From contig CAJVYU010000025.1 in the NCBI GenBank assembly GCA_913009735.1, positions 1 through 34,353 of the forward strand: a DNA stretch of 34,353 bases. Reading direction: 5' to 3'. Both the position numbers and the translations under genes were made by a program. Of the stretch, positions 2,078-8,542 are shown piece by piece. Numbering within the stretch: the first letter of the stretch is position 1; each line of letters opens with the position of its first letter. The DNA comes from an uncultured Fidelibacterota bacterium (GTDB taxonomy: Bacteria; Fidelibacterota; Marinisomatia; Marinisomatales; TCS55). Below the pieces are notes generated by a model, which made no database searches, was not told where the DNA came from, and worked only from the letters and a program-made list of their open reading frames with translations.

Positions 2078-2139
2078 ATTAATATGGAAATTAATCGACT
2101 GTGTCGATTGTACATTGACACAGTCAATGTATTCCAAAG
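2078..2139. repeat. REP-like palindrome, left copy flanking the RAYT gene
   Basis: An imperfect palindrome with arms GACTGTGTCGAT (2097-2108) and ATTGACACAGTC (2114-2125), one G-T pair in the stem and a 5-base loop. It is bracketed by ATTAATATGGA on the left (2078-2088) and a TCCAAA tail on the right. The same bracketing sequences occur at 2774-2784 and 3061-3073 on the other side of the transposase gene. The two copies therefore belong to one repeat family that frames the RAYT. Confidence 0.8.
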
Positions 2140-2232
2140 ATAGGGGTTATTGAACACCGACAGTCTAATAATAAATCAAGGTAGTTGATTAAGTCAACGA
2201 ATTAACACAATCGCATCATTTCAAAAGTAAAA

Positions 2233-2778
2233 ATGGAGGAAGAATACAAAACATATCAGCATAATCCGCCGCATTTATTTATCGCTAATGCGAAGTATTT
2301 TATTACAGCTTCTACATTGGGTAGATATCCTTATCTTAAATCAAAGGATGCAAAACTAGCAGCGTTTGATTATCTTACTAAATCATTGGAATTCTATCAA
2401 TGGGAATTGGAAGATTGGGTGATTTTAGATAATCATATTCATATAATGGTCAATGCACCGGAAAATGCGGCTACTTTGTCAAATGTAATGAATAATTTTC
2501 ATCGATTTACAGCAAATTGGTTATCCAAACATCAAATTAAACGAATTCGTGAAAAATATTTTTATAATTACCGAGATACCTGCATTACATTTGAAAAATC
2601 ATATTTTACACGTCTCAATTATATATGGTATAATCCTGTAAAACATGGTTATGTGGACTCACCTGAAAAATGGAAATTTGGTAGTTATTATTATCGCTTA
2701 AAAGAGGAGCAGGAGGAGATACGGAAAATTATTAACAAATATCCGTGTGATAAAGTGAAAGTAAAAGACGATTATTAA
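2233..2778 (+). CDS. REP-associated tyrosine transposase (RAYT, Y1/HUH family)
   Basis: A 181-residue single-domain HUH protein of the IS200/Y1 transposase superfamily. The metal-binding HxH motif is NHIHIMV with H68 and H70. The candidate nucleophile is Y130 in LNYIWYNPVKHGYV, matching the YI..NPV..G signature of RAYTs, followed by the usual W..SS/GSYY-type motif at about 147-154. RAYTs are domesticated single-strand DNA transposases thought to move or maintain REP palindromes. Here the gene is bracketed by such palindromes, and its stop codon lies inside the start of the right-hand copy, as expected for a self-contained RAYT-REP unit. No clear Shine-Dalgarno precedes the ATG. The adjoining tandem array is the likely product of its activity (inference). 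Confidence 0.88.
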   Translation: MEEEYKTYQHNPPHLFIANAKYFITASTLGRYPYLKSKDAKLAAFDYLTKSLEFYQWELEDWVILDNHIHIMVNAPENAATLSNVMNNFHRFTANWLSKHQIKRIREKYFYNYRDTCITFEKSYFTRLNYIWYNPVKHGYVDSPEKWKFGSYYYRLKEEQEEIRKIINKYPCDKVKVKDDY

Positions 2779-3076
2779 TATGGAGTCAATCGACTGTGTC
2801 GATTGAGCATTGACACAGTCGATTGAGCATTGACACAGTCGATTGAGCATTGACACAGTCGATTGAGCATTGACACAGTCGATTGAGCATTGACACAGTC
2901 GATTGAGCATTGACACAGTCGATTGAGCATTGACACAGTCAATTGAGCATTGACACAGTCGATTGAGCATTGACACAGTCAATTGAGCATTGACACAGTC
3001 AATTGAGCATTGACACAGTCAATTGAGCATTGACACAGTCAATTGAGCATTGACACAGTCAATGCAGTCCAAAAGG
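2774..3076. repeat. Right REP copy expanded into a 13-unit tandem array of 20 bp
   Basis: The right REP copy starts at 2774 with the same ATTAATATGGA as the left one and forms the same 12-bp stem (2792-2820). Its 3' half is then iterated, giving 13 head-to-tail 20-bp units from 2801 to 3060 before the TCCAAA tail resumes at 3061. Units differ only at their first base: G in units 1-7 and 9, A in units 8 and 10-13. Across each unit junction GTCRAT and ATTGAC can pair around a TGAGC loop. The A variant turns a G-T pair into A-T, so the array can fold as a row of small hairpins. There are no unique spacers, so it is not CRISPR. Confidence 0.93.
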
Positions 3077-3078
3077 TA

Positions 3079-3480
3079 CTAATCCTCCAATTTGATTTGA
3101 ATCCCCAGTTCTCTTTCTATATCCGCTACCATCTCTTTTTCTGAGAAAAAGACCATGCCGTCCGCTTCAACTAATGCAGCTACTTTTGGACCAAATTTGT
3201 TTTGCAGGTCTTCTTCAGTAAAATACTTTTTAATATTCGAGCAGAGCCGGATCGCATAATTACGTCTGGAAAATGAATCCATAGCCAGCAAGGCTCTGGA
3301 GGCGTCTTGCAGAAATTCCATAGCCCTGTCTTGTGAATGATCCGGAAAAAGTTCTGTAATGGCATTGGCCCATGATTCCCGTTCTTCAAAATCCATTTTA
3401 CCGTCTGCTAACTGCAAGCATGTTAATAAATGGGTGACTGCTTCCAATGGTGTCATCTCGTTCGGTTTCTTCATTTGCAT
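3079..3480 (-). CDS. TerB-like (DjlA-N superfamily) small cytosolic protein
   Basis: 133 residues, mostly helical, with no signal peptide. Two acidic motifs typical of TerB-like domains are visible: LQLADGKMDFEERE near residues 22-35, and VEADGMVFFSEKEM near 107-120. Both have the ADG...EKE/EE pattern seen in tellurite-resistance B-like and DjlA N-terminal domains, where the acidic residues are proposed to bind metal. The gene ends 19 bases from the REP array and is divergent from the DUF1232 gene at 3661. The specific role is unknown; the tellurite label is a family name, not evidence of resistance. The ATG at 3480 follows a GGAAAGA stretch that can serve as ribosome-binding site. Confidence 0.7.
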   Translation of the reverse strand: MQMKKPNEMTPLEAVTHLLTCLQLADGKMDFEERESWANAITELFPDHSQDRAMEFLQDASRALLAMDSFSRRNYAIRLCSNIKKYFTEEDLQNKFGPKVAALVEADGMVFFSEKEMVADIERELGIQIKLED

Positions 3481-6876: not shown

Positions 6877-7632
6877 ATGATTGTTTCAAATGTTGAAATC
6901 GCTATTGGCATTTGGCAAATGACCCTACTCGCACCGGAAGTGTCATCTCACTATAAAGGACCGGGGCAATTCATTAATATTTTATCAGCCGATAGCTGGG
7001 AACACCCGGTGCGTCGTCCCATGAGTATTGCGAATGTTAATGGCGAAAATATTAATATTATTTATAAGATATTTGGTAATGTCACACAACAATTATCACA
7101 AAAAGTCCCCGGTGATTCATTAAACATTCTTGGGCCGTTGGGCAATGTGTTTACTGGATGGAAAACAAAAAGAACCGTTTTACTTGGCGGGGGAGTCGGA
7201 CTTGCTCCAATATTAAATCTCTATGAGTCTTGTCCCAACAGCACACTCATTATCGGAGCAAGAACTGCTGATGAACATTTTATGGAACACGAACCTGGAA
7301 AAAATATCTTTTTAACAACCGATGATGGTTCACTGGGCGTTGCCGGAAATGTGCTAACGGTATTGGAAAATTTGGATTTCAATGATCAAATAATCATTTA
7401 TGCCTGCGGTCCGAAACCTATGCTGAAAGCCATTCAGCATTTTGCAGCAAAAAATTCTGTTAAAGCCCAGTTATCTGTTGAAAGTTATATGGGTTGTGGA
7501 CTGGGTTTGTGCCAGGGATGTGTTATTGAACGACAAAATGAACAAATGAAAAAACATAGTTATCACGAAAAATATACACTGGTTTGTATGGACGGGCCTG
7601 TTTATTGGAGCAATGAGGTTTGCTTTGGCTGA
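6877..7632 (+). CDS. pyrK: Dihydroorotate dehydrogenase electron-transfer subunit PyrK
   Basis: 251 residues from the ATG at 6877; an upstream TTG at 6859 would overlap the previous gene. It is a ferredoxin-reductase-type flavoprotein: the FAD site motif RRPMSIA at about 45-51, the NAD-binding GGGVGLAPI, and a C-terminal [2Fe-2S] site GCGLGLCQGC plus a fourth cysteine in LVCMDGP. The C-x4-C-x2-C...C spacing is that of PyrK. The subunit passes electrons from the PyrD flavin to NAD+ in class 1B dihydroorotate dehydrogenase, in pyrimidine synthesis. The last 20 bases overlap the start of pyrD, so translation is probably coupled. All expected motifs are present. Confidence 0.93.
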   Translation: MIVSNVEIAIGIWQMTLLAPEVSSHYKGPGQFINILSADSWEHPVRRPMSIANVNGENINIIYKIFGNVTQQLSQKVPGDSLNILGPLGNVFTGWKTKRTVLLGGGVGLAPILNLYESCPNSTLIIGARTADEHFMEHEPGKNIFLTTDDGSLGVAGNVLTVLENLDFNDQIIIYACGPKPMLKAIQHFAAKNSVKAQLSVESYMGCGLGLCQGCVIERQNEQMKKHSYHEKYTLVCMDGPVYWSNEVCFG

Positions 7633-8542
7633 TTTATCAATCCAAATAGGTCATATTCGATTTAATAATCCTGTATTCGTTGCATCGGGAACATTCGGCT
7701 ACGGTACAGAAAATAAAGAATTAGTAGATGTATCTAAGCTGGGAGCCATTGTTACAAAATCGATTACACTTAATCCAAGAGAGGGCAACCCTCCGCCGCG
7801 CCTTGTTGAAACACCATCCGGAATGATCAACTCCATCGGTTTGGCAAATATAGGCGTTGATAAATATATCAGCGACATGCTTCCTGTTTATGAGGGAATC
7901 GGTACACCAATCATAATGAATATTGCCGGTTCTTCTATGGATGAATACATATCAGTTTTAGAAAAGATTGAGTCCGTTTCGTCAGCAATCGTCGGATATG
8001 AGATCAATATTTCATGTCCGAATGTAAAAGAAGGAGGTATGCAGTTCGGTATTGATTGCTCAATGACGGAATCCCTCACATCTGCATTACGCAAGCGGAC
8101 CGAAAAGTTGCTTATTATGAAATTGAGTCCGAATGTTACGGATATTTCATCCATCGCTACATCAGCCGAAAACGGAGGCGCAGATGCTGTTTCTGCAATC
8201 AACACTGTTGTTGGAATGAGTATTGATCATAAAACGGCGAAAAGTAATATTTATACAACATTTGGCGGCCTTTCCGGTCCGGCCATTAAACCCATCGGTC
8301 TTGCGTGTGTCCACAAAGTATTTCATTCGATCACTATTCCAATTATCGGTATTGGCGGTATCGTCAATACCGGCGATGTAGTGGAATATATTCTTGCCGG
8401 CGCAAAAGCTGTGCAAGTGGGAACGGCTAATTTTCGCGATCCCGGAATCTGTGTCAAGATATTGAATAATCTTGATTTATACATTAATAAACATAACATA
8501 ACTTTAAATAATTTGATTGGTAGTGTTAAACAGTATGACTAA
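7613..8542 (+). CDS. pyrD: Dihydroorotate dehydrogenase, catalytic subunit (class 1B)
   Basis: 309 residues, the normal length for class 1 enzymes. The FMN TIM barrel is recognisable from VFVASGTFGYG (21-31), TKSITLNPREGNPPPR (48-63), NISCPNVKEGG with the class 1 catalytic cysteine C135, MKLSPNV, and the phosphate-binding GIGGIVNTGD / GAKAVQVGTANF near the C-terminus. It oxidises dihydroorotate to orotate. The overlap with pyrK confirms the NAD-dependent 1B heterotetramer type. The following rlpA overlaps its stop by 8 bases. Confidence 0.95.
   Translation: MRFALADLSIQIGHIRFNNPVFVASGTFGYGTENKELVDVSKLGAIVTKSITLNPREGNPPPRLVETPSGMINSIGLANIGVDKYISDMLPVYEGIGTPIIMNIAGSSMDEYISVLEKIESVSSAIVGYEINISCPNVKEGGMQFGIDCSMTESLTSALRKRTEKLLIMKLSPNVTDISSIATSAENGGADAVSAINTVVGMSIDHKTAKSNIYTTFGGLSGPAIKPIGLACVHKVFHSITIPIIGIGGIVNTGDVVEYILAGAKAVQVGTANFRDPGICVKILNNLDLYINKHNITLNNLIGSVKQYD

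Follow-up and report, generated by a model that had tools for sequence, protein, structure and literature searches.

Known RAYT-associated repeat clusters and the present locus

Tandem clusters of REPINs, each a pair of inverted REPs, have already been described beside REP-associated tyrosine transposases (RAYTs). In Pseudomonas fluorescens SBW25, REPIN clusters adjoin all three RAYTs; the repeated unit is a whole REPIN with its flanks, and the largest cluster holds four REPINs plus one REP (Bertels and Rainey 2011, PMC3116915). Around one RAYT in three has a BIME directly associated with it (Nunvar 2010, PMC2817692), and the BIME-2 elements of Escherichia coli, likewise tandem and found also beside the RAYT, consist of whole inverted REP pairs with GTAG heads. 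REPINs of E. coli often stand in tandem, their local gain and loss has been discussed, and a tandem REPIN cluster lost five copies in a mutation-accumulation line (PMC8049555).

The window (the whole 34,353-nucleotide stretch analysed, contig C25 of its Candidatus Neomarinimicrobiota assembly) contains a locus of this kind, in which the REPIN to the right of a RAYT gene includes a tandem array. It resembles the SBW25 clusters and BIME-2 in being a tandem of REP-containing units beside a RAYT. However, its unit is 20 bp taken from inside one REPIN, a chimeric hairpin smaller than a REP, present in 13 copies with the REPIN brackets uncopied, and the heads of the REPINs are of the GGANT type. As far as we could find, a 13-copy array with a 20-bp sub-REPIN unit is new. 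The features of the locus are as follows.

2078 to 2143, + strand: left REPIN, unexpanded, with bracket TATGGA, hairpin B (loop TGT), hairpin A (loop ACA) and bracket TCCAAA
2233 to 2778, + strand: predicted RAYT gene, 181 aa, with HxH motif (DNHIHIMV) and Tyr motif (NYIWYNPVKHGYV)
2774 to 2784, + strand: left bracket of the right REPIN, ATTAATATGGA, including the RAYT stop codon (2776-2778)
2787 to 2805, + strand: hairpin B of the right REPIN, CAATCGAC-TGT-GTCGATTG, with stem covariation across 14 relatives
2798 to 3060, + strand: tandem array, period 20, 13.1 copies, unit GTC[G/A]ATTGAGCATTGACACA
2809 to 3063, + strand: thirteen mini-hairpins ATTGAC-ACA-GTC[G/A]AT, one per unit, the original 3' arm of hairpin A surviving in the last
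3068 to 3074, + strand: right bracket TCCAAAA, single copy, outside the repeat unit

The RAYT gene and its two flanking REPINs

Judged by its sequence, the predicted product of 2233-2778 is a RAYT, in agreement with the original prediction. It scored 90.5 bits against the NCBIfam model NF047646 'REP-associated tyrosine transposase' (cut-off 80) and 32.3 bits against Pfam Y1_Tnp, and its sole PDB sequence match was TnpA-REP 4er8 (E 5e-7, ~33 bits). H68-x-H70 and Y130-x-x-x-NPVKH were invariant across eight homologues. The NPVKHG motif and the HxH region are common to this protein and the E. coli TnpA-REP of 4er8, whereas the GTAG-recognition residues of the latter, W94 and Q95, did not align with identical residues. 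The closest named relatives were in Candidatus Neomarinimicrobiota metagenome assemblies.

The orthologue in a same-genus genome, with the same neighbours, shared 89% protein identity (dS 0.24, dN/dS 0.22), and the remaining RAYTs of the own genome were at most ~38% identical to the window RAYT, a pattern of vertical inheritance with one gene per REP family. These substitution values mark the RAYT as a conserved resident, its sequence kept under constraint, and the array as a later change. REPINs stand on both sides of the gene and recur at about ten places in the genome. The locus is a REPtron, in which two REPINs enclose a RAYT gene that is passed on vertically. The upstream neighbour (163-2058) codes for a large protein of surface type, whose sorting tail for type IX secretion matched TIGR04183 at 34.7 bits (cut-off 23).

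Many related RAYT genes carry a REPIN of the same family in the part of the coding frame that separates the HxH motif from the Tyr motif, and the frame stays intact; the window RAYT is without such a REPIN. Such in-frame REPINs have been published for TnpA-REP subclass 2.4 (PMC6006769). A structure predicted for a RAYT with a REPIN insert had a mean pLDDT of 48.5, too weak for use. The in-frame REPINs are located as follows.

L069: 4292-4356
L070: 4292-4392
L071: 3129-3199
L169: 1637-1701
L173: 1777-1883
L175: 1837-1895
L131: 192-283

Anatomy of the flanking REPINs

The same bracketed element had been claimed for both RAYT flanks, and a covariance model of the family (R2) recovered it on the left (2078-2143, 76.3 bits, E 5e-17) as well as on the right (2774-3075, 47.4 bits). 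On the + strand the order is TATGGA, hairpin B, a short spacer, hairpin A and TCCAAA; the ancestral hairpin A of the right REPIN is ATTGAC-ACA-GTCAAT. Pairing was evaluated over fourteen element copies from the own genome and relatives, in which two local hairpins with ~8-bp stems and 3-nt loops had 95.5% of cells paired, against 74% for the best register of a long hairpin pairing REP with REP. Compensatory changes on both sides occurred in 11 of the 16 stem pairs, compared with 0 or 1 pairs in the control, where the partner was slid by one to three columns. With mirrored heads on its two hairpins and a short spacer between them, the flanking element is a pair of inverted REPs, i.e. a REPIN.

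The head next to the stem is TGGANT in nearly all of the 14 aligned copies, instead of the canonical GT[AG]G. Since GTRG is also absent from TnpA subclass 2.6 and class 3 (PMC6006769), we describe the element as a REP with a non-canonical head. Group 3 TnpA-REP systems, e.g. that of Stenotrophomonas maltophilia (PMC8266576), share the 8-bp perfect REP stem and 3-nt loop, but the S. maltophilia head is GTAG where the window has GGANT next to the stem. The locus widens the range of RAYT/REPIN anatomy, here with a head other than GTAG, to Candidatus Neomarinimicrobiota.

The 20-bp tandem array

Tandem Repeats Finder (TRF) reported 2798-3060 with 98% matches and a score of 491, the second-best array of the window scoring 55. 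The array comprises 13 units, ATTGACACAGTC[G/A]AT, from 2809 to 3063 at a spacing of exactly 20 bp throughout, although its true length may differ, given a metagenome-type assembly of 258 contigs and 3.42 Mb. The number and period agree with the original description of 13 tandem half-palindromes; the units themselves turned out to be complete mini-hairpins with a 3-nt loop. A single base varies, G or A, as had been noted, reading GGGGGGAGAAAAA from left to right, and the A variants do cluster distally, with one G out of order. Taken over all 14 arms the variable base reads GGGGGGGAGAAAAA, its first G and last A being ancestral.

Each unit extends from hairpin B, at its 3' arm, as far as the loop of hairpin A. 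It is less than a whole REP, holding half of each REP in the pair without the head, and lacking a whole inverted REP pair it does not make the array a BIME-2 or a tandem REPIN cluster. It is bounded by GTCGAT/GTCAAT, near-direct repeats that lie 20 bp apart in the unexpanded element, while the outer brackets TATGGA and TCCAAAA are present in one copy each and are not copied in the array. RNA folding of the array gave z-scores of -10.2 on the + strand and -4.5 on the - strand, and DNA folding gave -6.7.

Several other identities for the repeat were rejected. Every unit contains TTGACA, but the array held no promoter-like site and its promoter scan was below chance; a CRISPR was ruled out as there are no spacers. 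An iteron array of a replication origin does not suit a repeat whose adjoining gene is a RAYT on a contig that looks chromosomal, one example being ORF 7613-8542, which on reading its sequence we take to be dihydroorotate dehydrogenase-like. A coding repeat was set aside because a 20-bp unit is not divisible by three, and a 94-aa minus-strand ORF over the array was taken as spurious.

Ancestral state and amplification in relatives

The same-genus genome (L039, L068) carries the orthologous RAYT with the same neighbours and collinear flanks, and on the right one ordinary unexpanded REPIN, which shows the window array to be the derived state. A pattern for three successive hairpins of the array sequence matched only the window among 245 phylum genomes. 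Other members of the REPIN family are amplified differently beside their RAYTs: the unit is the whole REPIN (63-66 bp) in L069 and L071, and L072, which comes from an Ignavibacteria assembly, has 4.8 copies of a 40-bp unit made of a single REP arm together with its bracket. There are therefore at least three amplification registers beside RAYTs in this family, and only that of the window is without a bracket.

Further RAYTs of the phylum are adjoined by different tandem arrays.

L049: 1824-1964, 28 bp x 5
L051: 2020-2078, 20 bp x 3
L149: 2071-2282, 57 bp x 3.7
L201: 2123-3007, 125 bp x 7
L067: 838-1217, 152 bp x 2.5

Arrays and RAYT proximity

Proximity was assessed at 78 RAYT loci from the phylum, almost all of them obtained by the family-model search. 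An array was counted as clean if it scored 80 or more in TRF with matches of 85% or more, and as near or far if it lay within 450 bp or more than 700 bp from the RAYT match. Fourteen clean arrays lay near a RAYT against 0 in 112 kb of far DNA (binomial p ~1e-6), an imperfect control in that far DNA is mostly coding. Within the REPIN family itself, arrays occurred in 4 of 12 RAYT-flanking cases (the window, L069, L071 and L072) and in 0 of 35 solo REPINs (Fisher p 0.003), where the twelve RAYT genes flanked by the window's family were listed by hand and the solo set was 41 loci less 6 duplicates. Arrays are thus linked to the RAYT neighbourhood. Because solo REPINs with the same hairpins had no arrays, the places where arrays arise must depend on more than hairpins and short repeats.

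Origin of the array

The array is likely to have arisen in an ordinary REPIN, through replication slippage or through unequal recombination of two arms spaced 20 bp apart, the slippage itself and the part played by the hairpins being what we infer. At the start, hairpins B and A of the right REPIN would have had nearly the same 3' stem arm, GTCGAT in B and GTCAAT in A, at a distance of exactly 20 bp, and misaligned replication or unequal recombination between them would duplicate the 20 bp in between. Events of the slippage type are known to be favoured by single-stranded DNA that forms hairpins, and folding of the hairpins could have assisted the first duplication. Whether a unit has G or A would be set by the side of that base on which the exchange falls, G marking descent from the hairpin B side and A descent from the hairpin A side. 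From two copies, slippage by one or more units could then lead to 13. Such events may become more frequent where a RAYT nicks DNA close by.

The G/A variants match the two ancestral arm ends, and the unit with its variable base is fully predicted from the ends of the ancestral REPIN. A search showed that the observed G/A string can be reached from GA by tandem duplications alone, in a minimum of seven steps, so that the array is derivable from one ordinary REPIN without point mutation. Single-unit steps alone cannot give the string, since one G is out of order, and multi-unit steps are needed; this unit, requiring a multi-unit step or a mutation, counts against slippage. The array is probably near neutral.

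The original prediction offered expansion by the HUH transposase or by replication slippage. Local expansion was upheld, and slippage or unequal recombination fits better because the unit ends at the sequence repeat GTCRAT instead of at REP boundaries and leaves the brackets uncopied; the transposase may have helped to set off the expansion, given that such arrays lie beside RAYTs and are absent from solo REPINs. Had the RAYT made the array, it would have cleaved and rejoined the adjacent REPIN in cis on single-stranded DNA, adding hairpin units by repeated strand transfer. TnpA-REP does cleave and strand-transfer REP DNA (PMC8266576), and the confinement of arrays to RAYT surroundings, both for clean arrays and within the REPIN family, is in its favour, yet the unit lacks the 5' head (TGGANT) as well as the brackets, and the relatives that do copy brackets (L069, L071 and L072) look different, so that we regard this origin as unlikely. 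Nevertheless, slippage alone leaves the RAYT proximity unexplained, and cutting by the nearby RAYT, or tolerance of arrays at such sites, could add to it. A broader and doubtful idea is that RAYTs destabilise their own adjacent REPINs by cutting in cis, which would make RAYT-side REP DNA a hypervariable minisatellite across the phylum, with the 13-unit array as an extreme case; if true, array length could tune RAYT dosage or binding.

An assembly artefact, in which a longer or shorter repeat was collapsed or wrongly joined to give the present copy number or unit order, has in its favour the 258-contig metagenome-type assembly and a longest internal repeat in the array of 123 bp, near usual short-read k-mer limits. 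Ordered variants, an exact phase and both correct flanks would be hard to make from a single-unit locus, and the flanks are collinear with those of the relative, which makes this explanation improbable even if the copy number may still be wrong. We give still less credence to a selected regulatory element that ends transcripts between convergent genes, protects mRNA or titrates the RAYT. The array does sit between the RAYT stop codon and the 3' end of an opposite-strand gene (3079-3480), and its + strand folds strongly (z -10.2), but neither a terminator-like nor a promoter-like site was found within it, and it is absent from the same-genus relative and present in only 1 of 245 phylum genomes.

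The locus offers a readable case of how a REP cluster can start, in which every array base is traceable to an ordinary REPIN kept in the sister genome. It also separates two routes that are usually lumped, internal slippage with brackets uncopied and whole-unit copying with brackets copied, and the comparison suggests that the RAYT neighbourhood matters for both.

The REPIN family across genomes

Further copies of the palindrome, which the original prediction had called for, were found at about ten places in the own genome (21 R2 matches, counted on both strands), including solo copies read on contigs C92, C128, C49, C176, C22, C164, C41 and C87. The same-genus genome gave 23 matches, and the family was present in 20 of the 61 genomes searched. 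A genome search with the exact bracket pattern TTTGGANTG...TCCAAA was too strict and returned mostly chance matches. Seven genomes (G002, G009, G013, G022, G037, G041 and G042) carry the REPIN family with distant RAYT matches to the window protein or none, and their REPINs may depend on other RAYTs or be remnants.

Several REPINs contain, nested within their hairpin loops, a GC-richer second palindrome of the CCCGCTACGC...GCAGGCGG type, which gives the impression that a further REP family inserts itself in the REPIN loop. It was seen at the following loci.

L120 (contig C87 of the own genome)
L069: 3893-3984
L070: 3895-3996
L128
L132
L073: 4528-4611
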